From Agarophyton chilense (lineage: Eukaryota; Rhodophyta; Florideophyceae; Gracilariales; Gracilariaceae): a DNA stretch of 64,000 nt. The translations under genes were made by a program, and so were the position numbers. Positions 7,900-62,704 of this stretch are shown here, in pieces (the first letter of the stretch is position 1; every line of letters starts with the position of its first letter). The notes below the pieces were generated by a model. It was not told the DNA's origin and did no database searches. It saw only the letters and a program-made list of their open reading frames with translations. The stretch spans positions 1,488,001 through 1,552,000 of the forward strand of contig JARGXX010000071.1 in NCBI GenBank assembly GCA_030374765.1, in the 5' to 3' direction.

Positions 7900-7991
7900 A
7901 AAAACGGAGAGCATTTTGTGGTACTCGACTGAAGACTGTAGAGGTCTCGGTGCAGTGGATATCCACAGGACCAATCGCTAAGAGCGGGTGT

Positions 7992-8914
7992 TGTAGAGCA
8001 ACGCCCAGTTAGGGGACACTTGAAGATGCAACTCATAGAATGAGGGTTGAACCCTCCGAGGGTTATGAATATGATCCCCTCTAAGGTGTGCTGAGGTGGC
8101 ACGGTTTTCTGGTTAGAGTTCGCCTATGAAGGAAAGATTCGGATGGCCCATGGTTGGATTGGCCCCGTGATACACGTGGCTTAATTTCGGCACCGATTAT
8201 CGGATATTTGTTAGAACGTCGGACTTTTGGGCCCTGACAGTGGGATCTCCACGTGTATGGCCTTGAGCAGGTGTGCACTACTGTAATTAGTAGAGTTTAG
8301 TTAGTGGGCCCTACTTAGGGAGACGAGATCTGACAGTCCGAAGCTCAGAGTAAAGGGGAACCAAGGTTGGTCTTCGATACCTTTAGAGGTTTTTCGTCGC
8401 CATTGTTTCGGCCTTACAACCCGGAACGGGCTCTGGTAAGCAACGCCTGCGTAGGGACACGACTCCACTTGGAGAGTGCCCACGTTTGGGTTCCGTGCAA
8501 CCACCCCCTCAGGACCGCTCAGAAGACCTGCGTGCACGATACCCCGTGGGGGTTCTGCTTACTTGTTGCGTGCTTTTTGTGTTTCCTTTCGAGGACAGGT
8601 TTTCGCCCCTGTATTGGGTTTCTTTTGTTGTTTCGCCCCTTTTCTGGTTCTCGGGTCCGGTGCCTGTTAGTACCCGACCCTCGCCCCGTTTTTCCTCTTC
8701 GCCGGATTTTCCCCCATTCTTTGGGATACCCATACCCATTCCCGACCCAACGGTTTCTACCCCTCACCTCCGTCGGTACTGCCGGAATCCCCCGTGGGAG
8801 TTACACCCCACACTACGGGTGGAACGGAGGGCTTTGTCTCTGAGTCTGCCTCCCCCAGGGAGCAAGGCTTCGAACACCTTTAGAGCACTTCCCGTCGCCG
8901 GGTTTTGCTCCACA
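7992..8914 (+). repeat. 5' LTR of E1
   Basis: 923 bp, TG...CA bounded, colinear with 17924-18846 and of the same length. Its start resembles that of the solo LTR at 19499 (TGAAGAGCAACG against TGTAGAGCAACG), which suggests related families. Open frames inside it also occur in the other LTR and are not genes. The bases just after it, beginning TGGTCTCCCG at 8917, are a possible primer-binding site, but I cannot name a matching tRNA. Confidence 0.95.
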
Positions 8915-11172: not shown

Positions 11173-13232
11173 ACTTGGGAGTCTCCCCTGCGGGAGGGGC
11201 GTCTTCTAAGCCGGAGTTGAAGACGCCCGAGGCGCTCCAGCTTCGCTCCCCAGCTGTGACTATCCTTTCAAGGAAAACGGCTGACACCGACGTTAACTCG
11301 GGATACTTTAGTGTCCTCCGTCGCCCGTGGATACGGTCCCGTAATCTCCGTATTCCGGATCGAGTTATGGCAATGGCCAAGCGGAATTATAAAGTATTCG
11401 CCGACTTCGGCCTGTCCAACCAGTTTATGGTTCATCAAATATCTGTCCTGGATACAGGAGCCGCTCCTAACTTAATTCATGTTGAATTGTTACCCCCGCT
11501 GCTCCGGGTTCAAGTTCGTACCGGTCCACGTTTGGATATCGCCGATGCGAACAACAACCCGCTACGGACATTGGGTACAATTTCCCTCATGGTGAGGTTA
11601 GGCTCCTATCTCGTTCAACTGGAGTTTATTGTATGCAAGTCACTTGCAGCACCAGTCATACTGGGTTGTGACTTTTGCGACCGCTTCGTGGAAGCCATCC
11701 GTTCTCGGAATAGAACTGTGGAACTCGAAGACGGGTCTACGATCCCAATCGTTCGTAAACCCTTACAGGGAGCAGCGCGAACACGCGTTCCTCTCCCCGT
11801 CGCGCAGAAATCTGTGAAGAAGGACCCGGTGTCTACACGGGTAAAGGTTGCGAAGGCAGTGGCTATCCCGCCAGAAACCCAGGTTTGGGTCACAGTTGTT
11901 ACCAAGCAAATTGGTGTGCATGTGGTACAACCGAATCCGTCTCTGTATACGCGGCGTCAACTCGCCCTTGCGAATGGGGTTGTCTCCGTGGAACCGGATA
12001 AACCTTTCAAGGTTTTGGTAGCCAACTTTGGAAAGACAACGCAGCATTTGGTCAAACACCAGATCCTGGGTTCTGTTCTTCCACACCCGCATGCGGTCTT
12101 ACCTACAAAGATCTCTATCGCAGAGGCCCTTGGTGTGGCGGACCCTAAGGAGGGGGAGGATACTGCCGAAATCGCGGAAGACGGTGAGCATACGACTGCA
12201 GCTCCACACGCTGAACACTTTAAACCTCAGGAGGTTACGGCCTCTATCACAGGAGCAGACCAGACGGATCCTGTTCAGGAATTGGAGAAATGGGATCTCA
12301 ACCATGTACCCGCATCTCATCGGGAGAAGCTGAGGCACATGCTTCGTGAATTTACCCCCATGTGGGATGGTTCCCTTGGAACTATTGGGATTACAGAACA
12401 CCGCATCGACTTGTTACCGAACACTCGGCCTATTGCCCAACACCCTTACAGGGCTGGACCGAAAGCTCGGGAAGAGGAGATATCTCAGGTGGAGAAGATG
12501 CTTAAAGCGGGCGTTATTGAACCTGCCCAGTTCGCTTGGGCCTCACCAGTGGTGTTAGTTCCGAAACCGGATGGATCGTGGCGTTTCTGCATCGATTACA
12601 GACGCCTGAACGAGGTAACCATTAAGGATGTGTACCCGATCCCTCGGATGGACGAATACATCGACTCCCTTGGGAGCGCTACTGTTTTCTCTACCCTCGA
12701 CGCCAATTCGGGCTACTGGCAAGTCCTTATTAAGGAGGAAGATCGAGACAAAACGGCGTTCGTGTGTCATCAAGGACTTTTCCGATTCCGGAGGATGCCT
12801 TTTGGGTTGACAAATGCCCCCGCAACGTTTCAACGGGCGATAGACATTCTGTTGGCTCCCTTCAAGTGGAGGACGTGTCTAGTGTATTTAGACGACATTA
12901 TTGTCTTCTCCAACAACCTGGATGACCACCTCCAACACGTCAGGGACGTAATGAAGATACTCCGCGACGCGGGAATCACCTTGAAACTCAAGAAGTGCAA
13001 GTTTTTCACCGATTCGGTTAAGTATCTGGGTCATATCATCCGTCCCGGACAGCTTGCAATCGATGAAGTACGAGTGAAATCCTTGAAGGAAGCAAAACAC
13101 CCGAAAACTCAAACGGAGTTGCGATCCTTCTTAGGTCTGTGTAACGTGTATCGCCGATTTGTCCCGAACTTTGCGGATATTTTCACCCCCCTCAACAGGC
13201 TCCTGACGAAGGGACAACCAGTTGAACTGTAA
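11169..13232 (+). pseudogene. E1 pol, part 1: aspartic protease and reverse transcriptase
   Basis: In the -1 frame relative to gag. Protease: the active-site DTGA in SVLDTGAAPNLI, with the later hydrophobic signature VILGCDFCDRFV. A linker leads to the reverse transcriptase: WASPVVLVPKPDGSWRFC, then TLDANSGYWQ with the first catalytic Asp, then MPFGLTNAPATFQR, then the YLDD box with the other two catalytic residues, then the thumb/connection KYLGHIIRPG and FLGLCNVYRRF. All catalytic residues are present. The frame ends at TAA (13230-13232), where reading on would continue the normal protein. A CAA to TAA change would explain it. Confidence 0.9.
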
Positions 13233-14105
13233 CCTTTTGGCGACGCGGAAGCGTCTGCCTTCACGGCACTGGTGAATGCCGTAACATCCCCGCCAATCTT
13301 GGCTCTACCCAATCCTGAGCTCCCTTACGAAGTGGACACCGATGCTAGTGCAAACCAAGTAGGGTGTGCACTGTTCCAATCCTCTGAGGATGGTGAACGT
13401 CACCCTATTGTGTACTGGTCACGTTCCCTGAATGTCCATGAAAGGAACTACTCGGTCTCCGATAAAGAATGTTTAGCCGTTGTGTGGGCCTTAGCTACAC
13501 TTCGCCCCTATCTGATGGGTACTCGTTTCAAAGTCCATATGGACCACGCATGCTTGCGTTGGCTCCTGGAGATCTCCGAACCCTCGGGCCGCTTTATGCG
13601 CTGGCGTCTCCGACTGTCGGAATTCGACTTTGAGATCCTGTACAAGAAAGGGAAGCTGAACACTCAGGCTGATGCACTATCCCACTTGGGGACCACAGCG
13701 GAAACGGAACCCTACGAGGACGATGACATCCCATGTTTTATGGTATCGGACCTCGAGGGAGGAGCTCAACCGCTGACGGATGATGTTTGTGACGATATAC
13801 TCGTCAACGAGAGTCTGGATTCGCCGACCGGCTCTTTTATACCTATCTCTCCAGAGGAGATGATACGCGAGCAACAGCTCGACCCATTCTGTACACGGAT
13901 TCGGGCTCGCCTCAACGGAGGATTTCAGTTACCTTTCGAGGACGACGATCAGGGTTACCTAATCAGGACCGTTGGACCTCGCCCGAGGATAGTGGTGCCG
14001 CACACCCTACAAGAGAGGGTATTACACCTCACTCACTATGTGAAGGTTGGCGCCCACCCCGGGGGAAGAAAACTGTACCTAACGTTGAGAAGGGACTTTT
14101 ACTGA
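13233..14105 (+). pseudogene. E1 pol, part 2: RNase H and integrase zinc-binding region
   Basis: The same frame continues after the TAA. RNase H (Ty3-type) starts at YEVDTDASANQVGCALFQ, passes through YSVSDKECLAVVWAL with its catalytic Glu, and ends at QADALSHL. That ending has His where relatives usually have Arg, and MDHACL stands where TDHASL is usual. An acidic linker follows, then the start of the integrase HHCC zinc finger (HLTHYVK, HPGGRKLYLTLRRDFY). A TGA at 14103-14105 replaces the Trp seen at this point in E2 and E3 (DFYWP), which fits a TGG to TGA transition. Confidence 0.85.
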
Positions 14106-15707
14106 CCGGCAATGGCATTCGATTGTTACGCCGTCAGACGGGCCTGCGCCAATTGCGCCAAGAATGACGTCAAACTTCGAAAGCACTCTAAGAAGTTGAC
14201 GCTCTTCCCGGCACGGGCTCCACTCGAATTCGTGGCCATAGACATCCTAGGGGAGTTTATCAGGACGCCCCGAGGTCATCGGTATCTGCTTGTCATTTCT
14301 GACAGATTCTCTAAGTTAACGAGAACTGTGCCGCTGAAGCGGATCACCGCCGCTACCGTCGCGCAAGCGTTCGTGACCCATTGGGTGTTTGTATATGGAC
14401 CGCTGGTGCAGTTGTTATCCGACAACGGAGGGCAATTCGCATCAAAGTTCTTTCAGGATGTATGTCGAATCCTTGATGTAAGGAATTTATTGGTTACTAC
14501 GTATCACCCTCAGGGGAATGGCCAGGTAGAGAGGTTTAACCGCACGATACTCAACGCTTTGAGATCGTATGTTGCGGATCACCCCAAAAATTGGGACTTG
14601 TACACAGACGCTATCACGTATGCATACAACACCCAGGTAGATCGGGTTACATCGTTATCCCCATTTGAACTGGTACTGTCGAGGACACCGCCGCCGGTCG
14701 CCATCGAGGCTCAACCGACGCTGTCGACGTACCCGTCACCGGGATTGTACCGAGAAGCCTGGAAGGAGTGGCTTACGAAGATGGTGCCGATAGCCCGGAA
14801 AGCAATGGACAAAGCTCAACGCGCCTACAAGAAGGACTTTGACAATCGGGTTCGCAAACCTCTACCTCAGGTGGAGCCCGACGACTTCGTCTTCCTTCGA
14901 AAGGAATACTACAATCCTGAAAAGGAACGTAGGCACAAGCTTTCGCCAATTGTGGACGGACCCTATCGTGTGGTTTCTGTAGACCCGGACACGGTGGTAT
15001 TGGATATCGCTAACCGCCACGAACGGATCTCCAGGGACCGCATCACACGAGCGCCCAACCCAAATGTGGAAGTGGTGTCGGCACCAACGCCCTCCACAGG
15101 GGATGATTCAACGGAAGTTAACCCGTCAGGCGGAGATTCGAACACCCGCCCCGTTATACTTCCGCACCCGGAACGTGGTTTAACCGACCTACCGGAAACT
15201 TCAGATGCTCCCGAACCTGGGCCCGCTCCCTCAAGGGCCCAGTCAACGAACTATTACAGAGTTACTCCCCCACCGGAGGTAATCAAGCCTCCTCGCTCTC
15301 CGCCTAAGGAGGGGGAGGAGGACTTAGTTCCTTCGCAGGACGATGTTTCGGCGTCAGCCAGTCGCCCTAACAGGGAATCTAGTTCTCACAGTGAGACGGC
15401 GAGCCCGACCGAGCCGGCGACAGAGAAGTCACAACCCCAGCGTATGGGTAGCGACATCACCGCCAACCCAGCCGAGCACGACGTCAGAAAAGATGACGAA
15501 AACCCGCCTAGGGAGAGTCGTGTGGAGAACTCCGCACCCGGAACGCCTACAGAGCCGACGATCACCCGCCGCCGCGGACGAGACACTGAGGTGTCGCACA
15601 CTCAAACCCCGCTTTCTCGGGAACGAGCTGTGTCAGCGGACCCGCACGGGGAAGATTTCGACGACAAGGTTGACCAAATTTGGCTCTCCGTTATGGAAAG
15701 GGAATAG
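14106..15707 (+). pseudogene. E1 pol, part 3: integrase core and C-terminal domain
   Basis: Continues in frame from the zinc finger (CANCAK supplies the two Cys). The core shows the catalytic triad: Asp in FVAIDILGEF, Asp in LLSDNGGQF, Glu in GNGQVERFNRT. The usual YNTQVDRVTSLSPFELV segment follows, then the C-terminal domain (DDFVFLRKEYYNPEKERRHK, VDGPYRVVSV). A long Pro/Ser/Thr/Glu-rich tail follows to the stop at 15705. The integrase part is uninterrupted and catalytically complete. The chromodomain is not in this frame; it is reached downstream at 16257-16547 after disrupted linker sequence. Confidence 0.9.
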
Positions 15708-16944: not shown

Positions 16945-17842
16945 CTACGGAAAGCCCGAGGAGGGACCCGCCCCACCGTTGGGATTCTGACCCTGATGGT
17001 ACGCCGAGGCGAAAGCCAACATCTGGCTCACATCCGTCATACCCGGGGGAATCGGAATGTTTGCGTTCACGAGGCCTTGTCGCACACTATCGGCTTGCGG
17101 AGTGGCAACCAGCGCCTGCACAAGGGTGTTCACACCCCACCCGGGGGGAGCAGATGGACCGCCACCGGATGCATTCGCCGCCGCAGCTGAGGTCGTTCCC
17201 ACTGGTTGGAAGGGTGCAGATGGCTCCACAGGGAGTACTCCACTAGGAGATGGCACGTCGTTATCCAACGCTGGATCGTCCAGGTCTACTGGAGGCTCGT
17301 ACTCGTAATCGTCGGTATAAATGAACCCCGTCGGGTGTCCCACCGGCATTGGTTGAGGCGAGTCAATCAGCGCCCGTGCTTGCGCCGCGCTGATGCGAAC
17401 CCCTTCAAAGGGATTGTAATAGACCCAGTTACCGGAGCCCGGATCGTACCGGCCAGGAGACTTGTCTCGCGCGGATCCTTCCCCTGCGGGCTGATTTGCA
17501 ACTGGAACTCGATCCCATTGGGTGTTGTCGATCACGTCCAAGATTGGATACAGGTCCTGCACGTTGCTGGCCGAACCCAACGCTGAGACAAGGTCGATCT
17601 GACGCATGATGGTCCGTAGCATCGGAGAAATCTCCACCCTGCTGGGGAGCTTCGTTGTCCGCCGGCGCGGAGGCCGACGGCCCCGAGAGTGGGTTGATGA
17701 CGTATGGGTTCATTCCCTTGAGAGGGCTGGTTGAGACTGCTGTTGCGAGAAGTTGCTTATCGCCGAAAGTCGGAGGAGTAGAAGAAAGTTGTACCGATGT
17801 GCCGGTTTTGTGGCGATCCTCAGAAGGGGTGAAGGACCCCAT
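16945..17842 (-). pseudogene. E1 antisense ORF (family-conserved, unknown function), internally shortened
   Basis: Runs opposite to gag-pol, with its ATG at 17842, about 80 bp inside the 3' LTR edge. The first 68 codons (MGSFTPSEDRHK...) are in one frame and the last 230 (to 16945) in another, joined near 17640. The C-terminal part contains VQDLYPILDVIDNTQWDRVP, then SPGRYDPGSGNWVYYNPFEG, then MPVGHPTGFIYTDDYEYEP. These align with the antisense products of E2 (IDIIGRVDWAVVP, FIFFNPWEQ, YGHPVGFVNSDDFYY) and E3 (DFVWYDPWTR). Relative to E2 and E3 the middle, about 300 residues, is missing. No catalytic motif, signal peptide or membrane segment is visible. Minus-strand TATATATAC lies about 10-20 bp upstream of the ATG. 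I do not recognise the family. Confidence 0.7.
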
Positions 17843-17910
17843 TGGGAGAAAAGTATATATAGTGACCGGAAAGCGAGACACCCGCGGCTCGGAATGTTCT
17901 TCCTCGTCTT

Positions 17911-17923
17911 AAGGAGGGGGAGA
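17911..17923 (+). other. Polypurine tract of E1
   Basis: AAGGAGGGGGAGA lies directly before the TG of the 3' LTR at 17924. It is the expected plus-strand DNA primer site for reverse transcription. E2 has the matching AAGGAGGGAGATA on its sense strand. Confidence 0.85.
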
Positions 17924-18846
17924 TGTAGAGCAACGCCCAGTTAGGGGATACTTGAAGATGCAACTCATAGAATGAGGGTTGAACCCTCCGAGGGTTATGA
18001 ATATGATCCCCTCTAAGGTGTGCTGAGGTGGCACGGTTTTCTGGTTAGAGTTCGCCTATGAAGGGAAGATTCGGATGGCCCATGGTTGGATTGGCCTCAT
18101 GATACACGTGGCTCAATTTCGGCACCGATTTTCGGATATTTGTTAGAACGTTGGACTTTTGGGCCCTGACAGTGGGATCTCCACGTGTATGGCCTTGAGC
18201 AGGTGTGCACTACTGTAATTAGTAGAGTTTAGTTAGTGGGCCCTACTTAGGGAGACGAGATCTGACAGTCCGAAGCTCAGAGTAAAGGGGAACCAAGGTT
18301 GGTCTTCGATACCTTTAGAGGTTCTTCGTCGCCATCGTTTCGGCCTTACAACCCGGAACGGGCTCTGGTTAGCAACGCCTGCGTAGGGACAAGACTCCAC
18401 TTGGAGAGTGCCCACATTTGGGTTTCGTGCAACCACCCCCTTGGGACCGCTCAGACGACCTGCGTGCACGATACCCCGTGGGGGTTCTGCTTACTTGTTG
18501 CGTGCTTTTTGTGTTTCCTTTCGAGGACAGGTTTTCGCCCCTGTATTGGGTTTCTTTTGTTGTTTCGCCTCTTTTCTGGTTCTCGGGTCCGGTGCCTGTC
18601 AGTGCCCGACCCTTGCCCCGTTTTTCCTCTTCGCCGGATTTTCCCCCATTCTTTGGGATACCCATACCCATTCCCGACCCAACGGTTTCTACCCCTCACC
18701 TCCGTCGGTACTGCCAGAATCCCCCGTGGGAGTTACACCCCACACTACGGGTGGAACGGAGGGCTTTGTCTCTGAGTCTGCCTCCCCCAGGGAGCAAGGC
18801 TTCGAACACCTTTAGAGCACTTCCCGTCGCCGGGTTTTGCTCCACA
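17924..18846 (+). repeat. 3' LTR of E1
   Basis: 923 bp, the same length as the 5' LTR, with about 21 substitutions and no obvious indels. It is followed at once by the target duplication GGTGT. Confidence 0.95.
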
Positions 18847-19039
18847 GGTGTCGCCTTTCGAGCGACGGTTCTTAGATAAGAAGAGAGTGTGCGGAAAGCG
18901 GCCAGGTATTCCTGAACAATGTGGATAAAATCTGTATTCAAGATGCAGATGTACAGATTGGGCGGTACGTTATGCACACGAAATCGGCTCGAAAACCCTT
19001 GTGACAACACAAATAACCAGGTAACAGTAGAGAAAACAA

Positions 19040-19168
<129 letters not shown>

Positions 19169-19498
19169 AGAAGGCTGTAAAAAAGGGGCGGTGATTAAGA
19201 AACACTAGAGCGTATCCTCGGAACAAGAGCTATAGCTTAGAACGGTTAAGAACTGATATTATAACTGACTTTTTGTGGTAAACCACTTCAGGATTTCTAG
19301 CACTCACCAAGATGGCGTTTAGGTTGGTTGGTTGTTGGTTGGCTTTCGCTGTCTTCACCTGGGCCTTGCGCCCTTTAATGGGGCTAGAGGCAAAACATAT
19401 ACTGTACAGTAAGGCATACACGTGGCGTGCCACAACATAATTATCTAAACACTACCAAATAAAACATTTGGTGATGGAACCTTACGGTGTACATTAAA

Positions 19499-49959: not shown

Positions 49960-51827
49960 ATGACGGGGAGGCAACGGTCCAACCGGCATAAAAGCGAGCC
50001 GCGTAACGCGTCCAGCGACCACTCGACTGTCGAAGGCAGAGCTGCACAACCGAACAACAAACGCACCAACGCGGTAAACACTCCTCGAACTTCGAGCGTT
50101 CTTCTGCATCGTACACCAACTTCCAGCGAACGCATTCCGATACGTCGGCGACCAGTATTCTCTATGAACGGTGGTAACAATCCCCGCCGGGGATACTTCT
50201 CCAGTTTCCATTCGGCTTACCTTCCGCGGGGGAGTGCCTCGGCAACCGCGCCGAGCCGATCCCGGGGTCCTGTTGAAGCTTCAAGCCACATCATTCCTGC
50301 AGAGGAAACTTGGCCCACTTACGACGAACTCGTCGGGTTAAACCCGCGTCAACATGCGGCGATTCTCCGGAGAGCTCCGTGGTTCCATCCGACAGCGGTC
50401 TTCGACGAAGAACTCGGGGCGTCGTATGCTGATGGCAATGCGCGTCTCCCGGGCGAGCTGCCGGCTTTGATCATCACCTCGTGGGATTGGCGACGCCGTG
50501 TGGCGGTTCCCGTTCACGCGATTCTGCGGCGAAGGCGCGAGTCGACGGAGGAGGCGCATTGCGTATTTGTCCGCATCGGCTATTCACGGATCAACCGGGC
50601 GAACTTTCAATACCCCATCCCCGAAGAATTCGGCTTCGACCTACGGATGTACCGGACTCAGGGTGAGATCGGCTACTGTGACCGCCTTGCGGCGTTGGAA
50701 ACTTACGCATGGCGCAGTCAACCGCGAACGCGTCAAGGAGCGATCTGCTGGGTCCGTCCGATCATTCGTGCCGAGTTCCGTCATCTTCGTCGTGAGTCCC
50801 GGTATCGGTGGTTACAGAACTTCATCCGCGAGGAGCGTCGGGGCAGATCCCGCTTTGGGTTCCTTGTCCCTTATCAGAACACGGAGATAAACCGGACTAG
50901 TCCCTTCTATCAGTTCGGGCGATACGCTTCCCTGCCTGGGTGGTGGTCCTCCGTCGAGGTGTGCCGGGGATGTTACGTGAAGTTGCCTCCAGTCGTCTCC
51001 TATCTGGGCTCGTACCTCATCGAAGATCCACACTCCGGCTCATGGTCCGTGGTCCTAACCGAATGGGCAGTCCGCGCCGCGGCGTACATCTTGTGGGAAG
51101 CCTACGACCAGTATCGACTGTGGTATCTTCCTCCGCGTTTGCGTGGTTACTCAGGCAGCTGGACCTTCAACTCCCTCTTGGAGGTGTCAATAACGCTAAT
51201 GAAGCTCAGGAGCTCATCGACATCATTGGGCGTGTCGACTGGGCTGTCGTGCCTGTCCGGCAGAGCGGCCGTGGTCAAGAAGCCGGTGGGGCTGATCGGT
51301 CTCCGGGGCGTCGCACGCCGTTGGCGGGAGATTTCATCTTCTTTAACCCATGGGAGCAGCAAGAGATCTTTAAGGCGGAGGCGTCGGCACTCCGGATGGC
51401 TCCGCGAGGCATACCATACGGGCACCCCGTGGGGTTTGTCAACTCGGATGACTTCTACTACGCCTATGGCAGTGATGATCTTCCGGAGGAGGAGGGCGAA
51501 TACCGTGGCGACGAGGTCATGGAAGACGTGGGAGACCCCGATGGTGCCGATACTACGGCGAAGCCGTCGCAGGGAGCGACTCACGCAGGTGCAGTCGTCG
51601 ATCCAGTGGCGGCGGCGTTGCCGGACGAACCGGAACTTATCGAGGTTCCCATACGCCCAGAGGCGGTCGTGATCTCCCAGTTCCTTCGGGGTGCTGGACT
51701 GAACGCGCAAGCGGCGAGCGGCGACATCGGTACGATGAGAGACGCCCTCGTGTCAAGCCTGGCCGGCGGGAGTTACTCGGCTAGCGATTCGGCTGGCGCG
51801 CACGGTAATCCGGGTTCTTCCAACTGA
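49960..51827 (+). pseudogene. E2 antisense ORF (family-conserved, unknown function), one frameshift
   Basis: Opposite to E2 gag-pol. The ATG at 49960 (MTGRQRSNRHK) lies 36 bp inside the LTR edge. The first frame covers about 400 residues: RAPWFHPTAVFDEE, LVPYQNTEINRTSPF, VVSYLGSYLIEDPHSGSWSV, AAAYILWEAYDQYRLWYL. Near 51150-51180 a one-base shift moves to the frame that continues NANEAQELIDIIGRVDWAVV, GDFIFFNPWEQQ, IPYGHPVGFVNSDDFYY and ends NPGSSN at 51827, about 620 aa in all. E3 matches nearly the whole length and E1 the C-terminal third. It is tryptophan- and tyrosine-rich, and arginine-rich in the middle. No transmembrane segment, signal peptide or known catalytic motif is seen. Apart from the frameshift it has no stop, although pol of the same element is heavily damaged. 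Function unknown. Confidence 0.75.
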
Positions 51828-51899
51828 TCCCTTGGGAACTTGGTTAGTACATCCCGTTTTGCGGTAGTGTGTGCAGCAACTTCGAAAATAATAAACTGC

Positions 51900-52020
51900 T
51901 TCCGTCTATGACGTATTTGTTTTCTTTCTTCTCTTCCACTTCTTCTGAATGTTTTTCTCCAGGTCTTCTGTGCATCTTCTCCTTCTTCCAAGGGTCCTTA
52001 TCCAGATCTTCTGTTCCTTT
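51900..52020 (+). repeat. Pyrimidine-rich tract (purine-rich on the E2 sense strand)
   Basis: TTTCTTTCTTCTCTTCC-like sequence between the stops of the convergent antisense ORF and pol, equivalent to 16720-16890 of E1. No gene. Confidence 0.75.
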
Positions 52021-52039
52021 ATCCCCATCGGGTTTCTTC

Positions 52040-53458
52040 TTATCCCACTTGGGCTCGGTCTATGGTGGCTGGCAAAGCCGTGATAATACGACGATGATAC
52101 TGTACCACCTTCGACCGGGGCAGGTGCTCTATCGGTTCGTCTGAATCCCAGTCGGGGCCGTACCCGTACCAACGGACCAAGTATTGGATATACCCCTTTG
52201 GGTGGGAGGAGTGCTCCAAAATGCGTCCTACCACGAACTCTTGTCGGTACACTTCCCGGCCATCCCGTATGACGGTGTCGCTATCTCCGGGTGGTACCCG
52301 TCCTGAGCCAGGGGGTACCGAAGTGATCACGCGTCGGGCGGCTTCGCTCCGGTCGGACCGTGTAGCGCGCAAGGCAGTCCTCGGCTGAGTAGAATGTCGA
52401 CCCGACTTCGGCGGTTCATCTTCCGCAAGTTCTTGGTTTGCTTCGGCGTTTCCCACTCCGGTTGGAGGGCCCACACCGGCGGGTAGCCCGGGTTGTCGTT
52501 CCGCTAATCGGCGTGGTGAAGCTCGCTTCGGCGGTGAGATTCGCTGGGGCAGTGGCGCATTGTCGCACCTCTCTGTCCCACGGCGAGGTTCCGTGTAGAC
52601 ACGTGAGGGTTCCAATGGCTGGGTGTCCGGCGTCGGCGCCGTGGATGTATCCGCCTCCCTGTGCAGGGTACTTGGCGGTGCGTCGTCCACTCGTACTGTA
52701 TCAGGCTCCGGTGCGTCGAGCGCATTTTCATTCCGTGTTGCACGTGTGGTGACACCTCTGCGAGTGTTGGTGGCGTTATCCGCAGCTGCGTTCTGAGGCA
52801 TGGAGAGCGACTGCTTTGAGTCGTGCAGGACGCCGGTATCAGGCACCCCTGATGGGCGAAGAATGACACGCGACGGTGCAACGTTTCCAGTGACGGTATC
52901 GACCGGATTACGACGGCTGTCGGGCGCCTCGCTCTCCATAGACGATTCACCAGGGTTGGTGTCCGTCGGGTGGACTGGGGAGGAGCGACGGATGTGCGAC
53001 ACGATTCTTTGCGGGCTGGGCGCCGCGGGTAGCGGAAGGTCAGACAAACCCCGAGATGGGTGTGGTAACGCGTAGGGACGCGGGTGGACCTGGGGTAAGG
53101 GGGTCGATGAATCCATTTCAACGGGAGCAGTCACACCAGTAGGTTGGGATGTCATCGGCGGAGGAGCCGATACCACGCTATCGCGGGAGATGCGTTCGTG
53201 ATTACCAGCGAGTTCAACAACCACACTGTCGGGAGCCACCGAAATAACCCGAAAGGGGCCGTCGGCAACGGGTGACAGCTTGTGGCGTTTCTCCTTCCCT
53301 GGGTTCCAATACTCCTTGCGGATGAATACATAACCGTCGGGGGCGAGACGTGGTGGCGAGCGAGGGGCTTTGATATCAAAGTCACGCTTGTAAGCAGCGT
53401 GGGCTCGCCCCATTGAACGCCGTGCGGCGGAACGAGCTTCGTAAGCCAAGTTTTCCAC
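52040..53458 (-). pseudogene. E2 pol: integrase C-terminal domain, long linker and chromodomain
   Basis: The frame starts within the integrase tail (SMGRAHAAYKRDFDIKAPRS, then GYVFIRKEYWNPGKEKRHK, then FRVISVAPDSVVVE). It runs through about 250 residues of Pro/Ser/Thr/Arg-rich linker and ends with a chromodomain: EFVVGRILEHSSHPKGYIQ, YLVRWYGYGPDWDSDEPI, EHLPRSKVVQYHRR. The end DRAQVG equals that of E1. Unlike in E1 the chromodomain is still in frame with the integrase tail. The frame is offset from the integrase core by a frameshift near 53450. Confidence 0.85.
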
Positions 53459-54538
53459 GCTTCGCGGTAAGCAGTCGGTGACGGAAAGGTATCCAGCGTG
53501 GGCTGTGGTTCCAGCGCCACGGGCGGTGGGGTACGGGACAGTACCAGCTCGAAGGGCGTTAATCCAGTTGTCTTGTGCACCTGCGTATTGTACGCAAAGG
53601 TGAGCGCATCAGTGAACAAGTCCCAATCTTTGGGGTGGTCGGCAACGTATGAAGGGAGTGTCGAAAGTAATGTCCGGTTGAACTGTTCGGCCTGCCCATT
53701 AGTTTGGGGGTGGTAAGTGGTTGTGAACAGGTTCTTAATGTCCAAGATGCGACACACATCCTCGAAGAAACGAGAGGCGAACTGTCTCCCGTTATCGGAG
53801 AGGAGGTTGAGCGGTGGGTCGTAGACGAAGACCCAGTGTAGGACGAAGGCTTGAGCCACGCTCATAGCGGAGATCTTCCGTAACGGTACGGTCCGGACCA
53901 GCTTGGAGAAGCGATCCGTAATTAAGAGTAAGAACTTGTATTTCCGCTTATTGGTAAGGAAGGGACCGAGTATATTGATGGCCAAAAACTCCAATGGAGC
54001 GCGAGCTGGAAATAGCTTCAACTCCGTCGCGTGACGGCGAAGCTTGACACGGTTCCGAGGGCAATCGGTACAAAAACGCGCCGTTGCGAAGCAGTCCACT
54101 GCCATGGCAGGCCAGTAGAAGTTACGGCGTAGGGTGAGGTAAAGTTTCCGCCCCCCGACGTGGCCACTCAGTTTGGAGTAGTGCGACAACCGCAAGACTC
54201 TCGACTGGAGGTTAAGTGGTGCCACGATTTGTGGGTGCGATCCGACGGTCCGTACAAGGTACCCAGCGTCATTCACCTGAAAGGGGAGAGTACCCTCTCC
54301 ATTGAGTTGAGCGCGGACCTTGGCGCAGAACGGGTCAGCGAATTGCTCCCGTATCATCTACTCTGGAGTAATAGGCACGAAGTTCCCTGGTAAGGGTTTC
54401 TCGGAATCTTCCGAGAGAAGAAAGTCGTCCAATTCGGAACCTGAATCTGAAGGGTCCGTGTCTCGTTCCTCGTCCTCGATGGTAGCGTCGTCGCCATTCA
54501 CTGCAAAGCAGGGTATTGTATTTCATCGTCTTTGACGG
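53450..54538 (-). pseudogene. E2 pol: integrase zinc finger and core, catalytic Asp lost
   Basis: Open from about 54357. It shows the HHCC finger (RLSHYSKLSGHVGGRKLYLT, CTDCPRN) and the core. The first catalytic residue is changed: FLAINILGPF has Asn where E1 and E3 have Asp (AIDILGE, SIDILGE). The second Asp (LLSDNGRQF) and the Glu (NGQAEQFNRT) remain. Upstream, between RNase H and the finger, the frame is broken (TGA after IQYPALQ near 54510). The C-terminus shifts frame near 53450. An integrase without its first Asp cannot join DNA strands. Confidence 0.85.
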
Positions 54539-56177
54539 GTAGTGCTTCACCAGTAGTGACCAGGTGGGAGAGAGCATCGGCTTGGGTGTTGCACGATCCT
54601 TTTCGCTACTGCACGCCAAAGTCAACTTCCGCTAGACGAAAATGCCAACGCATCAAGCGGCCTGAAGGCTCCGAGATGGAGAGTAGACATCGAAGCGATG
54701 CGTGGTCCGTAAAAACGGTAAAACGATTACCCATGAGATAGGGGCGCAACGTTTGTAATGCCCATACTACTGCAAGGCATTCCTTCTCCGAGACGGAGTA
54801 ATTCTTCTCGTGGACGTTGAGCGATCGGGAACAGTACCATACGGGGCGTCTTTCCCCATTGGGTGCAGTTTGAAACAGTGCACAACCTACTTGGTAGTCG
54901 CTGGCGTCCGTATCTACGGTGAAGGGCCTTCCAGGCTTGGGCAACGAGAGGATCGGGGCGGAAACGACAGAATCCTTAAGAGAGGTGAAAGATTCCGTTT
55001 GAACGGGGGTTATGGGGTCCAGTTTTGGTGGTTGGCCTTTCTGCAAAAGCGCGTTTAACGGTGCAGCCTTGTCCGCAAAGTGCAAGATGATACGTCGGTA
55101 GACGTTTGCGAGTCCCAGAAAGGAACGAAGCTCGGTTTGCGCCCGCGCTTCTTTAGCCTCTTTGAGTGACTTAACACGAGTCTCCTCGATTGTAACACGT
55201 CCTGGACGGATAACATGGCCGAGATACTTGACGGTGTCCGTGAATAAGTCACATTTCTTCAACTTAAGAGTGACACCCGCATCTCGAAGCGTGGTCATTA
55301 TATCCCTCACATGAGTGAGATGTTTGTCCAGATTATCTGAGAAGACGATTATGTCATCCAGGTAGACCAGGCAGGTACTCCATTTTGAGCGGGCCAATAG
55401 GATGTCAATAGCTCGCTGGGAAGTAGCGGGGGCGTTGGTAAGACCAAAAGGCATCCGTTTGAAACGGTAGAGACCGGAGTGACACGCGAAAGCAGTTTTA
55501 TCCTGGTCATGCTTTTTTACCGGAACTTGCCAGCATCCCCAATTGGCTTCCAGGGTTGTAAAGACGGTGGCGGTGCCTAGCGAGTCAATGTACTCGTCCA
55601 TTCTTGGGATTGGATACACTTCCTTGACGGTGACGGCATTCAACCGACGGTAGTCGACGCAAAACCTCCAGGAACCATCCTGCTTTGAAGCAAGTACTAC
55701 TGGAGAAGCCCAAGGCGACTGAGCCGGTTCAATGACTGCTGCTCGAAGAATTTTATCCACCTGTGCCTTTTCCTCCGCGCGTGCGGCGGGTCCGGCACGG
55801 TATGGGTGCTGAGAGATGGGTCGGGTGTCTGGTAGCAAATCAATCCGGTGTTCCGTAGTGGCAATCTCACCAAGGGAGCCGTCCCACATAGTGGTGAAGT
55901 CCCTTAAAAGTTCTCGCATTCGATGGCGGTAAGACTCCGGGACGTGGCTGAGATCCAAATCCTCGAGCTCTTGGACTGGATCGGGGCGATCACCACTCGT
56001 TGAAACGGGCTGCGTCCCTGATGTTACAGGTTGAACCCCGGGTACCGGCGATGAAACGGTTTCCGGGCTGTACCCCTCCTTAGAGTGAACGAGTCCGAGA
56101 ACGTCAGCTGCGGTCAGCTTTGTCGGCACCATGGCGATGGGGTGCGGCATGACGGACCCGATCACTTGGTTCTTCAC
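54539..56177 (-). pseudogene. E2 pol: reverse transcriptase and RNase H
   Basis: Continuous from QVIGSVMPHP to FGVQ, where a TAG (54606-54608) stops it; the next bases still encode NTQADALSHLVTTGE. RT motifs: WASPVVLASKQDGSWRFCVD, MPFGLTNAPATSQRAID, and an intact YLDD. The first catalytic Asp motif reads TTLEANWGCWQV, with Glu for the Asp present in E1 (TLDANSGYWQ). RNase H: FTVDTDASDYQVGCALFQ, YSVSEKECLAVVWAL, FTDHASLRCLLSIS. Loss of an RT catalytic Asp should abolish polymerisation. Confidence 0.88.
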
Positions 56178-57062
56178 CAGATACTATGGTACAGTCCCTA
56201 GATCAACGATCAGCACGTGAAACGGTTGGTTTGGCTCCACATGGACGATTCCATTTGCAATTGCGAGGCTATGCCTGTTATACAGTGACGACACTGGTTG
56301 TAAGACCCGGAGTCCGTGTTGACGGGAGGTTACTTTCACCATCATTTGGGACTCAGGCGGGACTCACAACAACGCTGCGACGCGGAGCTTATTAGACTCA
56401 CGGTTATCCGGTCCAGGTTCCTGTGCTGCCGGTAGCGGAACATGCTTCTTCGTGGCACGCCTAAGCGGACGACGAACGATCGGAGTGGACGATCCATCCT
56501 CCATCTCGAAACGCCGTTGGCGGGGGAAGATCGCTTCGACGAAGCGGTCGCAAAAGTCACAACCCAAGATGACTGAGGCGGCTTGGTTCCGACATACGAC
56601 GAAGTCGAGTTTCACCACGTGAGTGCCAACGCGAACTACCAGTTCTATGAAACCCACCGTATCTAACGGTTTGTTGTTCGCGTCAGCGACCTCCGGGACT
56701 TGGTCGCGGCGGATCCTAGACCGCAAAGCAGGCGGTAACACTTCCTCCACGACAAAGTTCGGACCGGCACCGTTGTCTAAGACGGTAAGGTGTCGCACCA
56801 TAAACTGGGGTGAAAGGCCAATGTCAGCATAGACCTTGTAATTTCTTTTGGCCATCACCAGAACTCTATCCGGGAATCGGTTATGGAAAACACGTTTCCA
56901 CGGACGACGCAGAACGCTAAAGTGTTCCGAGTTAACGTCATTGACGGCATCTTTTCTTGAAAGGATTTTGACCGGGGAGCGAGGCTTGGACGCCTCGGGC
57001 GCCGTCGACCTCGACTTTGAGGGCGCCCCTCCTTGAGAGGAGACTCCCACATTTAGTTTTTC
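56178..57062 (-). pseudogene. E2 pol: N-terminus and aspartic protease
   Basis: Enters in the -1 frame from gag at 57056-57062 (GAAAAAC before TAA) and starts LNVGVSSQGGAPSKS, like E1. The protease region has the active-site position as TVLDNGAGPNFV, with Asn for the Thr of E1 (DTGA), then VILGCDFCDRFVEAI. It ends VAALL near 56364. The following 190 bases still encode recognisable protein in another frame (RQHGLRVLQPVSSLYNRHSL, FHVLIVDLGTVP) but contain a TAG before YLVKNQVIGS. Confidence 0.82.
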
Positions 57063-57780
57063 TGGGCCTGCTCCGCCGGAGGCGGCTGCTCAGGGCGTTG
57101 AGCGGGCAACGCCTGGGCATCAGGTCCAGAAGGTACCGCAGAAGCGGTGGGGTGACCGACCACGTCGGTGACACGGGATTCCGGTGCAGGTACCACCCGA
57201 GCTCGGTGAAGCGACACATGACGTGGAACTTCCGTTCGAGCACGGATATACGATGTAATCGGAACAGCTGCTTTGTCCTCCGGGGATAGGGCCTCGTAAT
57301 TGACTACGACTTGTGCCCATTCTCGAAGAGACAACACACACTTTGGAGAAGTATGGCCTGGTTTGTAGCAGAGATGTCAAATCAGGCCAGAAGCCGGTTT
57401 TGGGTGGCGAGGCTCAGCGAACTTCACCGCTGGGCGGGTATCTCTCCAACCAGGACGCGAAAAGCGGACATTACCACTCTCATGTGGGACACGTGGCGCA
57501 CGGACGTGACCATTATCCGCATAGAGTAGCGTGTCATACTCAATCACGTATTGTGACTCGTCCAAGATTGAGGGTAACTCCGTTGTCAGGATGGAATGAA
57601 CGTCGCTATGGGCTAGCTGCACGTTATCATAATCTCTTCGAGAGGCCTGTTCGTCGATCTGTAGTATCCGCTCTAACGGAGAGAGCAGACTCCTGCGACA
57701 TCGTTCGGACTGCCGATGGGTCGCTTGTGGCGAAGGAAAAGGGGTGGTAGAGCTACAGCACCAGCGAGCTGGAAGTGGGG
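57053..57780 (-). pseudogene. E2 gag C-terminus with damaged zinc knuckle (5' truncated)
   Basis: One frame from about 57622 to 57053, interrupted by TGA at 57377-57379. It aligns with E1 gag at VRFSRPGWRDTRPAVKF. The knuckle reads stop-HLCYKPGHTSPKC, so the first Cys of CX2CX4HX4C has become the stop. After VNYEALSPEDKAAVPI it ends QAQKN just before the TAA, as E1 ends SASKN. Upstream of 57622 likeness fades and at about 57780 gag sequence ends against the putative E3 LTR. Confidence 0.75.
57056..57062 (-). promoter_or_regulatory. Candidate -1 frameshift site in E2
   Basis: On the minus strand CAG AAA AAC TAA ends gag; the heptamer GAAAAAC and the following TAA are the same as in E1 (11163-11172). 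A -1 slip enters the protease frame. The bases after the stop (A-TGGGAGTCTCC) are also shared with E1. Confidence 0.55.
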
Positions 57781-58251
57781 TGTAAGGCCATTACTCGCCA
57801 GCGAGGGTGAACAGTGCAACTGTAAAACGTTGATGGAACGTAAATACGAGACGGCTCGTGAAGTGGTTGGGGGCTGATTATCTATTATAGCTCGTCCGGA
57901 TCTCCGGTTAAGGAATCCTAAGCGAGCAACAGAATAGTCATGATGCCCATGTTGTCTCCTTTACTTGGAGTCGGTGCTCACCTCTGGTACACTATATACT
58001 GTGTGCGAGGGTGAGTGTCCAAATAATACGTAGAAAATACCCAGTGGTCAGCCACTTAGCCAAACCACTGTATGGGTATGGTACCTAATGAACATCTAGC
58101 TACAAAGGGTAGTAAAACCTGCCACGTGGATCGCCACTACATGCGCCGTTGCAAGCCACTCCACTCGTGATACCACATGTCCCAACAATGTACCCTGCCT
58201 CCTGGCATCCTACGCGGTGTACCGTCTCATAGCACAATGCTGATGATATCA
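57781..58251 (-). repeat. Putative 3' LTR of E3
   Basis: On the minus strand it starts TGATATCATCAGC directly after a short purine run (ATAAGGGAG, 58252-58260) and could end at GGCCTTACA (57781), about 471 bp. The left end is chosen because the TG...CA rule fits and E2 gag likeness stops there. A minus-strand TATATAGTGTA near 57990-58000 could be its TATA element. Without the partner LTR this is provisional. Confidence 0.45.
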
Positions 58252-58258
58252 CTCCCTT

Positions 58259-60119
58259 ATGAGTTCCAACCGCGACTTCGCGAAAAACCAACCCATCGGA
58301 TTCCCCGACATAGTAGAATACTACATACCCCTTTCGTTAAGCGCGAACCATGGGGGACGCAAGAAGCGTTTATACGCAGTCGGACCGGTGTTCCGGGTAC
58401 TCATCGTCCTCATGAATTCCTCGCCGCCCGACCAACTCTTACAGTTCCCAACAGCATTCTGTTCCTCACCGCTCTTCAGCTCGATCTCTTGCGATGGATC
58501 CGAACGCCGGGTCCAACCGTTCCAGCCCTCTTCTGAGGATGTGCCTTCTGGGGCTCCGTTCAAAACTGCTGGTTATGCGTCGCATCCTACTGCTCAACTC
58601 GGTCCATACCGTTCGTTCTCCACACCGTACACCGGATTCCGGTCGGTACCATTACCTCAGCCAACCGTGGCTCCGATGCCGAACGCGGCTTCCGTTGTCT
58701 CTGCGGGTGTGATTCGAGATTTTTCTCGTCGTGCTCAGCGGAGCTACCCGCACCCTGCGGATTTCTATGGACGAGATCCTCGCGAAAACGTTGAACTGTT
58801 CGCGCAAGCGCCCTGGTTTGATCCAGTTGCTATCCGCGATGACGCGATTTATCGCGACGGCGAGGCGAGCCATATTGCTTTGCCAGACAACGCAATTGCG
58901 CGATATTCAGCGGAAACCTTGCTCGAAGCCCGTACGCGGTTCACCAAGCTGATTTACCAGCGTCTTCACCGATTCATCAGTACGGTTCTCCTCTCGCAGG
59001 ACTGGGAACTAGATACCTGGAAAGCCCATACCAACGGTAAAGGTTACTCGTATATCGAGACACTCGTTGAAGTCGATATTAGCGGTTGGCGCGGTGTGCG
59101 CGGTGTGCGTGATGCAGCTCTCTGTTTTCGGCAAACTCTTCTCCGTGCGGAGTTCTGCTTCCTTCGAAAGCGTGACATTCCCTATTGGGATTATCCCCGT
59201 TGGGAACGTCGTACTCGATCACGTTTGGGCTATTTGGTGCCGCATCAAATGATCGAGATTGACCGCACCCGGTGGAACGCGCGCTTCGGGCGCTACATCG
59301 GTATTCCGGAGAATTGGGCGGCGATCGAGAGTCCTCGTGGTTTCCGGGTGGAGCACCCACCGGCGATCTCCTACATCGGGTCCGCGTTGGTTAACGACCC
59401 GTTCTCGGGATATTGGACGGTGGTTTGTACTGAGTTTATCGCCAAGATGGCCGTCTTCCTCCTGTGAGATTCTTATGATACCTTTAGAGTTTGGTACATG
59501 TCGCCCACAGCGCGAAAGTAAGCGAGAGAACTCGATATTTCCCTTGTCCTGGGATCCCGTGCGAACTAAGCTGACTTCTTCCATCTTGTGGATTTGATCG
59601 ACAGTGTCGATTAGTCTGGAGTGCCAGCTGAGCAATCCGCTCGCGGAACCCGTGCAAGACACCCCGACCATTCTCCTGGACGAACAGTAAGTGCTGGAGA
59701 TTTCGTTTGGTACGACCCCTGGACGCGCCAGTTGATCACGTCCGAGCACGCTCGCTTTCTTCGGGGGAACCCACGTGACATGCCACCGAACCAGCTTACT
59801 AGATACGTGTACGATGCTACTCCATCCGAGAACGGAGAGGAATCGTATGAGGAAGCGACGGGAGCTGAGGCTGAACTCGGTTACGAGGAGGAGCCAGAGC
59901 TGGCAGGCGTAGCGACTTCCGTCAATCAATCTGCAGCGGCGGGAGTTTCTCAAGAGTACTTTCATGGGTTTACCCAACAACCGAGTGCAGTGCCGGTCTA
60001 AGATCCAGGCTTGGATCCGGTGAGGCAGTTCCTCTTAGATGCGGGCTTTCTCGTGGACCAAGTTGAGGGTGATTGCGCACAGCTTCTTGCGAACCTGCGT
60101 GATCGCACGTCTCTTTGAT
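58259..60119 (+). pseudogene. E3 antisense ORF (family-conserved, unknown function), several stops
   Basis: The ATG at 58259 (MSSNRDFAKNQ) overlaps the complement of the polypurine tract, 8 bp from the LTR edge. One frame holds for the whole length. It is open to 59465, then has TGA (59465-59467), two TAAs, a TAG and a TAA at 59999-60001. The frame continues (DPGLDPVRQFLLDAGFLVDQ) to about 60119. Conserved blocks shared with E2: QAPWFDPVAIRDD, RTRSRLGYLVPHQMIEIDRT, AISYIGSALVNDPFSGYWTV, DSYDTFRVWYM, GDFVWYDPWTRQ. Two stops fall on Trp codons kept in E2 (LWEAYDQY, GRVDWAVV), so TGG to TGA and TGG to TAG transitions explain them. About 620 codons in all. The function is unknown; no known domain is visible. 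Confidence 0.75.
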
Positions 60120-60390: not shown

Positions 60391-61887
60391 TTAAAAATGG
60401 GATGTGCCCATGAGCCCGACTATCAAGGATTCGCTCTCCCTGGAGAGTGGTAATCGCATGCACCGATGATATCTCACGAGTTGCGAACGGGGGATATGAG
60501 CTATAGGTTCCCATGTATCCGCTTCCGGAGGAAAACCGTACCAACGGACTAGATACAGTAATTCTCTAGTATCTTCATGCTCGCCATGTTCACATATGCG
60601 ATCCATAACATATTCATGGGCGTTTCCCAATGCTTTCGATGTTGGCGCGAGACTCCTGTTAACAGGTTTGAAATGCCTTAGGGCTGACCCAAGCGTCTCT
60701 GTGTTAGCAGTCTCAGCGTCGCTAAGCGTTCGCTCGTCGACTAACTGTCGTTCTGCCCTCAGGGGCAGTGTACTCATTCCTTGAGAACCTTTCTCAGATA
60801 AAGAGCTATCCTGTTTTCCAGGTTCCATAGAAGCGTAGTTCTTGCTACTTCTCAATTCCATTCGTGGATGAACTTCCTTCGGTTTATCCGATTCTGACCG
60901 CTGTTGGGTGGACGATGGTGCTTGCACCACGACAGGAGGCGATACCTCTTCTTCTTCCTGCTCACGAGGGATGGGAGCCGATATCGGTGGAGCAGCAAGT
61001 GGCGCTTCACCTGACGGTTCAGCCTGAAGCGGCAACGGCGCGTTTTCGCGTGCCCTCGTTTCCAAGTCCTTGGGGCCAAATTCCAGAACATCTTTCCTAC
61101 ATTCAGGTTCCATTTCTGTACTTACGGGTGTGCGCGTGCCACGGGGCATATCCCGATACTTCGGAAGCTGTCCGTGATTGGCGTACGCAACCGCCGGTGG
61201 TGGGAGATCAGGAGCTTTCTCCTCCGCTCGAGCCATTGGTGGCGGTTCACTCTCCCCAGAGTCACTTGGTCTTTTGCCTTGACGTTCCGTCGCACTTGCC
61301 TCCTTAGTTATACCAGATACCTGGACTTCCACTTGCGGGTCAGGCGCGACTTCAACGCGATCGCGCGATACACGTTCAACGTCCTCACATGTCTTGATGA
61401 CCACTGTGTCTTCATTGAGGTCCACCACTTTGAAGGGTCCAGCAGCTATCGGCAACAACTTATGACGAGATTCTTCCTGTTTGTCAGGTCTTTCGAATCG
61501 CACGAAGACGTGACCTCCTACTCGGATTGCCGGATTTCCTCTTCGCCTTCTGGCGTCATAGTTTCGATTATAGCGAGCTTGCGTCTTTGGGAACTCCTTA
61601 GCGGCTTCTTCCGCTCTGGCCTTCAGGTCATTCCTCCATTTCAGATGGTACTTAGCAGGGGTCGGCGCGTCCAATTCTGTCTCGTCGTCGAGCGCAACCG
61701 GTGAAGCCGGAGGGTTACGTGAGCGCACGAGGTCGAACGGTGCCGTCTTTGTAGAGGTATGAACTTGCGTATTGTACGCGTAGCAAAAAGTGTCTGTAAA
61801 CATGTCCCATTCTTTTGGTGGTCCGCGATGTAGTGTCGTAATGATGCTATCAGCGTGCGGTTGAAACGCTCCACCTGACCGTTGCAT
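60391..61887 (-). pseudogene. E3 pol: integrase C-terminal half, linker and chromodomain
   Basis: Begins (after a one-base deletion near 61824 that separates it from the core) with PKEWDMFTDTFCYAYNTQVH. The C-terminal integrase domain follows (GGHVFVRFERPDKQEESRHK, GPFKVVDLNEDTVVIK), then a Pro/Glu-rich linker. It ends with a chromodomain: EYVMDRICEHGEHEDTRELL, YLVRWYGFPPEADTWEPIAH, IPRSQLVRYHR. It extends about 18 residues past the point where E1 and E2 stop. Uninterrupted in itself. Confidence 0.85.
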
Positions 61888-62704
61888 TGCGGATTATAGG
61901 TCGTGGTAAACACGTTTCGAATGCCCATAATGCGGCAAACATTCTGAAAGAACTTCGCAACGAATTGCTTCCCACTATCTGATAACAGAACTTCTGGTGG
62001 TCCGTATATAAATACCCAGTGTTTGATAAAATTCTGTGCGATTACGGTTGCGGTTATCCGCTTCAGCGGCACAGCCCGCACTAGCTTCGAGAAGCGGTCG
62101 GTGATTACCAATAGGTAGCGATAACCTCGCCTTGAGCGAATCAATTCCCCTAGGATGTCGATACTGACGTATTGTAAAGTCGCTTTCGCCTGGAATAACG
62201 TCATCTGTTTCCGCTTCCTGTAAAGCTTCACGCGATTTTTCGCACATGTTGTACACAACCTCACTGTAGCATGGCAGTCCATTGCCAAAGTAGGCCAATA
62301 AAAATCTCTTCTTAGAGTCATGAACAACTTCGTTCCTCCTGGATGTCCAGAAAGCCTGCTGTAGTGTGCCAGATGGAGTACTCGACTCTTCAAGACGTGT
62401 GGAATCACGATTTGATCATTCTTTTCGACATGTCTTAACAGTATTCCTCTTGAATCGAGTGAAAAGGGGAGCTCCTCCCCCCGTTAAGACGAGAGCGTAT
62501 TGACGCACAAAACGTATCGGCGTGTTTCTCATTGAGGAGCTCAGTGCACGAGATTCGCTCGAGTTGAACTGAAAGGTCATTTTCTGCTAATGCAAGGAAC
62601 GGGTCTGCATCCGAATAATCATCAAGGGTCTCTTGTTCCTCTTCTTCAAAAGATGGCGAATGGGTGTCTATGTAGAAGCAAGGTATCTCTTCATCGATTT
62701 CGCC
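61806..62704 (-). pseudogene. E3 pol: integrase zinc finger and core
   Basis: From about 62480 the frame reads FSLDSRGILLRHVEKNDQIV, then the HHCC finger (HLAHYSRLSGHPGGTKLFMT, CTTCAKNR) and the core with all three acidic residues: VSIDILGELI, LLSDSGKQF, CNGQVERFNRT. A one-base deletion near 62482 (in a G run) breaks the link to RNase H, and another near 61824 breaks the link to the C-terminal domain. Both breaks are single-base. Confidence 0.85.

Follow-up and report, generated by a model that had tools for sequence, protein, structure and literature searches.

A 64,000-nucleotide stretch of the genome assembly of the red alga Agarophyton chilense (C71:1488001-1552000, contig JARGXX010000071.1; hereafter the window) contains three long terminal repeat (LTR) retrotransposons of the Ty3/gypsy type, E1, E2 and E3, each of which carries a gene on the strand opposite to gag-pol, in the interval between the chromodomain and the 3′ LTR. 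This antisense open reading frame (ORF) is a gene and not a chance product of the sequence: it is regularly present in further copies, its protein has been under selection and has diverged together with pol, and related proteins occur in other Gracilariaceae. The explanation which we favour, with a probability of roughly 0.62, is that it encodes an accessory protein of this red-algal group of chromodomain Ty3/gypsy elements, which is expressed from the LTR, acts in trans and favours the propagation of the elements. A promoter in the 3′ LTR would drive an antisense mRNA, and its translation product would be a stable, soluble and lysine-poor protein of about 600 residues, of which about 300 would form a folded core while the ends would be disordered. 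This protein would then act in trans as an accessory factor favouring element propagation; most probably it would regulate the sense genomic RNA or its chromatin, or protect them.

The antisense gene and its place in the elements

As stated in the initial annotation, the ORF lies opposite to gag-pol in all three elements, with reverse transcriptase (RT), ribonuclease H (RNaseH), integrase and chromodomain encoded on the other strand (in E3 at least RT, integrase and chromodomain, on the minus strand). The E2 gene starts with an ATG at 49960 and is open to about 51.16 kb, where the single frameshift that had been described leads into a second frame ending at 51827; this break was also found in at least one further copy (L010). 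The E3 gene is present as well, but its decay is heavier than had been implied, with six in-frame stops and 58 gap columns in comparison with an open relative; its first frame reaches 59467, and 59615-60001 is occupied by a second piece. The start at 58259 that had been given for it falls inside the LTR as the edge of the latter was read, and 58350, beside this edge, fits better. For E1, both ends of the gene are present, but the long ORF assigned to this element has been destroyed by an internal deletion of about 0.96 kb relative to the 640-codon form, because of which only the gene ends are left, in two separate frames (16945-17709 and 17429-17908). Each of the three families also has open copies of full length, with 640-650 codons in E1 (eight of eight copies, which were picked for an open frame), 639-667 codons in E2 (four other copies among those fetched) and 611 codons in E3. 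The blocks GDFIFFNPWE, GDFVWYDPWT and GNWVYYNPFE, which had been quoted as shared by the three products, do align.

Copies were searched across the 79.8-Mb genome. The regularity of the gene was scored with the E2 chromodomain, a query that is blind to the ORF, on 150 of 2126 candidate matches and for the E2 type only. For 128 of the 150 matches, an antisense match was listed downstream on the opposite strand, and among the matches listed no core match on the same strand lay in that downstream range. From the other 22, 20 were fetched (1 kb each, in one case 500 bp) and 16 of these have an opposite-strand ORF or a remnant of it; three of the remaining four show nothing, and in the fourth the sole match is a same-strand piece with an identity of 32%. 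In total, 144 of the 148 E2-type chromodomain matches examined are accompanied by the ORF or a remnant, two of the 150 standing outside this count. Absence from other family members, which had been raised as a possible objection to a conserved gene, is thus not what is found.

This regularity bears on the idea that the ORF is a captured host gene which the elements carry along as a passenger. Such an origin would be in line with the lack of any known family for the protein and with its fast divergence relative to pol. However, the gene occupies the same place in all three families and in nearly all of the E2-type copies above, and it co-diverges with pol over the three families: RT identities are 75, 64 and 62% (E1-E2, E1-E3 and E2-E3), and those of the antisense product follow the same rank order with 36, 34 and 31% (over 569 codon columns). 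A passenger is accordingly an improbable explanation.

The antisense start codon was read at a distance of 81 nt (E1), 35 nt (E2) and 24 nt (E3) from the inner edge of the 3′ LTR, with a polypurine tract (PPT) upstream of it. Given this proximity, the antisense promoter is most likely located in the 3′ LTR. The hexamer CACGTG occurs at least once upstream of the antisense start in 29 of 29 placed E2 copies and in 28 of 29 placed E3 copies (30 sampled of each family), its distance to the start being mostly about 180 and 226 bp (12 rows of each), and each LTR of E1 contains two such boxes, 263 and 340 bp from the antisense start. There are 2.5 and 1.9 boxes per kb in the upstream regions of E2 and E3, compared to 0.36 per kb in the window. 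CACGTG may be a strand-symmetric promoter element that the three families have in common.

Selection on the antisense protein

Selection was assessed within families on 30 copies each of E2 and E3, which were chosen as best protein matches. Variants found in a single copy served as a neutral yardstick, and the expected ratio of nonsynonymous to synonymous variants (N/S) was taken from the mutation spectrum with CpG context. Relative to this expectation, the ratio for private variants was 0.92 in E2 (N:S 595:260) and 1.10 in E3 (606:206). For variants shared by two or three copies it was 0.92 and 0.79, and for those in at least four copies, which date mostly from active lineages, it was 0.52 and 0.62 (N:S 36:34 and 23:19). 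Pooled over both families, the comparison of variants in at least four copies with private ones gave an odds ratio of 0.43 (Fisher P = 3.5e-5), and that of all shared variants with private ones an odds ratio of 0.66 (P = 3.3e-5). The remaining two forward frames did not exhibit any depletion in this test in E2 and E3. Between families, the ratio of nonsynonymous to synonymous divergence (dN/dS) was 0.23-0.33 in the four of six comparisons that permitted its calculation, synonymous sites being close to saturation. The initial annotation had suggested selection on this protein, for which a dN/dS near 1 would have been an argument to the contrary; the private-versus-shared test, the between-family values and the six-frame control described below all bear the suggestion out.

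A different reason for the conservation would be that the ORF is kept by a sense gene, an RNA structure or a packaging signal, the antisense frame being a mere by-product. When one open copy per family was compared in all six frames, the antisense frame scored 352, 269 and 283 bits. Next came the wobble-sharing reverse frame, which retains 172, 114 and 109 bits and also shows a similar depletion of nonsynonymous variants in E3, as a by-product reading would have it. This reverse frame is, however, full of stops, and in each of the three comparisons the antisense frame outscores it two- to threefold; on this basis the reverse frames were rejected as coding. The antisense frame is open for 611-640 codons, whereas the sense frames contain 11-34 stops, with 283 codons as the longest open stretch (E2), which also speaks against an overlapping constraint from the sense strand, the second objection that had been anticipated. 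Differences between families affect 0.67-0.71 of the third positions in the antisense frame but only 0.42-0.51 of the first and second positions, and databases contain predicted proteins in the antisense frame from other genomes. The by-product explanation is already largely refuted, and hardly any weight can be given to it.

It is also conceivable that the antisense RNA itself is functional, for example by forming double-stranded RNA or by controlling gag-pol, and that the protein is secondary. The two genes stand tail to tail (212 bp between the antisense stop and the pol stop in E2), so that their transcripts could overlap, and noncoding antisense RNAs of retrotransposons are described (PMC7264820). 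Yet amino-acid changes have been selected against, and long open frames of 611-640 codons have been kept in families whose products are only 31-36% identical. As a role of the RNA alone predicts neither an amino-acid constraint nor a long ORF, it is disfavoured and appears unlikely as the full explanation.

The deletion form of E1 and the nature of the protein

The truncated gene of E1 is not a singular case. The junction of this deletion recurs in at least 42 copies across the genome, the window copy being one of them; this number was counted by eye with the deletion form itself as query and is hence no estimate of abundance. When 20 of these copies and the window copy were compared to 20 full-length copies, pairwise divergence was 2.0% for the deletion form and 1.9% for the full form. 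In a tree the two forms are interleaved, with six label changes, at least three of which are forced by well-supported branches; shuffled labels average 13.9 changes, so the forms are clustered and not freely mixed. The equal divergence and the interleaving reveal that the deletion form multiplied alongside the full form. That it represents a later or more freely evolving lineage is not supported, as both forms diverge by about 2%, the label changes number six and shared variants are few. The spread of the deletion form would fit with a protein that is supplied in trans.

Several points weigh against a selected protein that acts in trans for the elements. The spread of the deletion form could equally mean that the protein is dispensable, and shared variants in the C-terminal part of E1 show no depletion of nonsynonymous changes in either form (8 N:5 S in the full and 3 N:1 S in the deletion form), these counts being tiny. 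In E3, the wobble-sharing reverse frame is depleted as strongly as the antisense frame (odds ratio 0.45, P = 0.02), and therefore the variant test in E3 alone cannot choose the strand; the geometry of the two frames predicts such an effect, which was weaker in E2 (0.68, P = 0.17). Furthermore, N/S could be skewed by the choice of the best protein matches as a sample, although the private variants behave as if neutral.

With regard to relatives, the initial annotation had recognised no homologue. This stands insofar as no known family matches. Relatives do exist among the hypothetical proteins of Gracilariopsis chorda and Gracilaria domingensis, both of which are Gracilariaceae. The G. domingensis protein P0004 reaches 60% identity at best to this genome, among the matches listed, and these relatives may themselves be copies of elements. 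At least two further groups of copies in A. chilense are related to P0004 (for example C16:132564-133889 and C71:1463217-1464623); many of their listed open frames have 600-685 codons, and these groups are perhaps younger than E1-E3.

A Pfam search with the antisense proteins matched no family, bZIP-type domains included, and PF04195 (TRP28) found no match in six proteins at expectation values (E) of up to 10. Weak matches to PF02817 (one of six proteins, E 0.23) and to DUF7462 (one piece of E3, E 0.14) were set aside. The sequence search against the PDB yielded nothing apart from a sole match that was dismissed (E 0.78), and that against IMG/VR no relative. A first structure model from seven sequences was useless, with a mean predicted local distance difference test score (pLDDT) of 33.8, while a second one from 17 rows reached a pLDDT of 65.8 and a predicted template modelling score (pTM) of 0.64. 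No known fold, including viral ones, matched this structure of medium confidence, a negative result that is weak evidence because the other four models of the second run only reached 43-55. As no relative with an established function is recognised, the protein may be regarded as a candidate for a new fold.

The place of the gene, between pol and the 3′ LTR, is that of env, which might point to an envelope- or capsid-like structural protein. The antisense orientation and the lack of a match to any viral fold do not fit with this idea, nor does the apparent absence of a membrane span in eight proteins, in which the top hydropathy mean over 19 residues was 1.45. In addition, the sense strand of E1 already has a gag region with a CCHC knuckle. 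A structural role is therefore very improbable.

The protein is conspicuously poor in lysine. Nine open copies of E1-E3 contain 2-9 lysines in 611-667 residues (whole stop-to-stop frames), and lysine is the commonest residue in only two of 639 codon columns in E2 and in five of 611 in E3. The Gracilariopsis protein P0002 has a single lysine among 617 residues and a lysine-free run of 610. Expressed as K/(K+R), the share of lysine is 0.02-0.15 in the E1-E3 copies, P0002 and the other two closest relatives (P0001 and P0003), compared to 0.16-0.43 in ten gag/pol pieces from the same elements. Part of this poverty is explained by a low A-content at the first codon position, from which 11-13 lysines would be expected.

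Retroviral accessory proteins such as Vif recruit a host ubiquitin ligase against a host factor, and the algal protein might be a lysine-poor adaptor which does the same to a silencing or restriction factor of the alga. The few lysines, the long lysine-free run of P0002 and the K/(K+R) values below those of gag and pol would suit such a role. Lysine deserts are described as characteristic of cullin-ligase receptors and of further ubiquitin-system proteins, and the algal protein, strongly so in E1-E3 and Gracilariopsis, is like these and the lysine-desert proteins of mycobacteriophages in having long stretches free of lysine in which arginine is kept (PMC10665810; PMC10169902). It differs from them in that no sequence relation is known and in that the desert fades in several distant relatives, six of 13 relatives having 7-13 lysines. 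Moreover, active purging of lysines within families is not supported: new lysines make up 39 of 1258 nonsynonymous variants that are private, 20 of 332 in two or three copies and two of 60 in at least four copies, so they are not rarer but, if anything, commoner among shared variants (private against all shared, P = 0.03), opposite to what purging would cause. Together with the base composition, these observations render an adaptor of this kind quite unlikely. Still more speculative, and to be given only slender odds, is the proposal that a protein of a new family and fold is kept nearly free of lysine, so that it can occupy a host ubiquitin ligase and yet escape being marked for destruction, and that it turns this ligase against a host silencing factor; if true, accessory proteins of the Vif or Vpx type would have a backwards-coded counterpart that evolved independently. 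An accessory protein which acts on the sense genomic RNA or its chromatin in trans appears to be the better supported reading.

The elements of the window and known antisense genes

All three elements are chromodomain Ty3/gypsy elements (chromoviruses) with the order RT-RNaseH-integrase and a C-terminal chromodomain (Table 1). The Chromo domain scored above the cut-off in E2 and E3, and the pol of E1 aligns to that of E2 over its full length, including the chromodomain end. E1 is complete, with a target-site duplication, a PPT and a pair of LTRs that are 97.3% identical over the 937-bp match detected. For E2 and E3 no LTR pair was found within the window, and their LTR edges were placed by resemblance to the PPT and the TG of E1. 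The gag piece of E1 at 10246-11169 did not match any Pfam family.

Table 1. Coordinates of the antisense genes and other features of the three elements, numbered from the first letter of the window.
Feature	Position	Strand	Basis or remark
E2 antisense gene	49960..51827	+	core block and GDFIFFNPWE block; one frameshift
E3 antisense gene, decayed	58350..60001	+	earlier coordinates 58259-60119
E1 antisense gene, internally deleted	16945..17842	-	N- and C-terminal pieces in different frames
E1 5′ LTR, 923 bp, TG...CA	7992..8914	+	self-match and sequence reading
E1 3′ LTR, 923 bp	17924..18846	+	self-match and sequence reading
E1 target-site duplication GGTGT (5 bp)	left 7987..7991, right 18847-18851		sequence reading
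E1 polypurine tract	17911..17923	+	between LTR and antisense start codon; sequence reading
E1 gag region	9187..11172	+	one frame, in-frame stop 10243-10245; CCHC knuckle recognised by eye
E1 pol	11079..15707	+	single reading frame, two in-frame stops
E2 pol, C-terminal part	52040..53608	-	chromodomain PF00385, E 1e-5
E2 protease region, RT, RNaseH, integrase	53152..57089	-	Pfam matches for RT, RNaseH and integrase
E3 integrase end and chromodomain	60391..61893	-	PF00385, E 7e-9
CACGTG boxes, LTR regions of all three families	8173, 8250, 18105, 18182, 49734, 58123		

Beside the left end of E1, frames at 7115-7899 resemble a DDE-type transposase by eye and have no Pfam match; the insertion of E1 may have taken place within or next to another transposon. 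Near its right end (18696-19229) lies a GT/CA-type dinucleotide repeat, which appears as a CVCVCV run in a minus-strand frame. Elsewhere in the window, a minus-strand frame (22643-26383) stays open for 1246 codons, contains a protein kinase domain and is probably a host gene, and a dense tandem array with a spacing of 9/18 bases, represented by 30 overlapping matches to a 162-base unit, occupies 39047-39478.

Antisense additional ORFs (aORF-3R) are described for several plant LTR retrotransposons, namely GENE23 of maize Grande, rice RIRE2, ORF4 of Silene Retand and bean PvRetro13 (PMC7264820). The algal gene resembles them in its position, its orientation, its presence in most copies and its conserved sequence, and the comparison with Grande that had been drawn initially is apt as to kind. 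In contrast to the plant proteins, the algal one lacks a TRP28 (PF04195) or SMC match, and as judged by Pfam domains it appears to be unrelated to GENE23 of Grande and ORF4 of Retand. Retand is moreover described as belonging to a non-chromovirus lineage, whereas the algal elements carry a chromodomain.

An extra antisense gene in a Gypsy-type element is likewise known from Boty/BcGypsy1 of Botrytis cinerea, which contains brtn (PMC7264820; PMC8365987). There the host is a fungus, and the likeness is drawn from the description of brtn. HBZ, the antisense gene product of human T-cell leukaemia virus type 1 (HTLV-1), has a bZIP domain. In the algal elements, one long frame of 611-640 codons encodes a protein without any Pfam domain. 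HBZ and other retroviral antisense genes are driven from the 3′ LTR (PMC7264820), an arrangement that the algal gene would share if its promoter lies where the position of the start codon suggests. The examples of the plant aORF-3R proteins and the retroviral antisense genes point to a regulatory role for the algal protein (PMC7264820; PMC11963269).

In the open-licence literature, with subscription papers outside the scope of the search, no report was found in which elements of red algae or of the Gracilariales carry a gene of this type. The kind of gene is already known, from plants and from Boty of Botrytis, while the protein appears to be new. For plant and fungal LTR retrotransposons, the account in PMC7264820 describes antisense genes but assigns no function to them. 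The algal elements add an apparently unrelated gene that exists in very many copies, with evidence that the protein, rather than just an RNA, has been selected. As full and deleted forms occur together in one genome, the role of such genes and their possible action in trans become testable.

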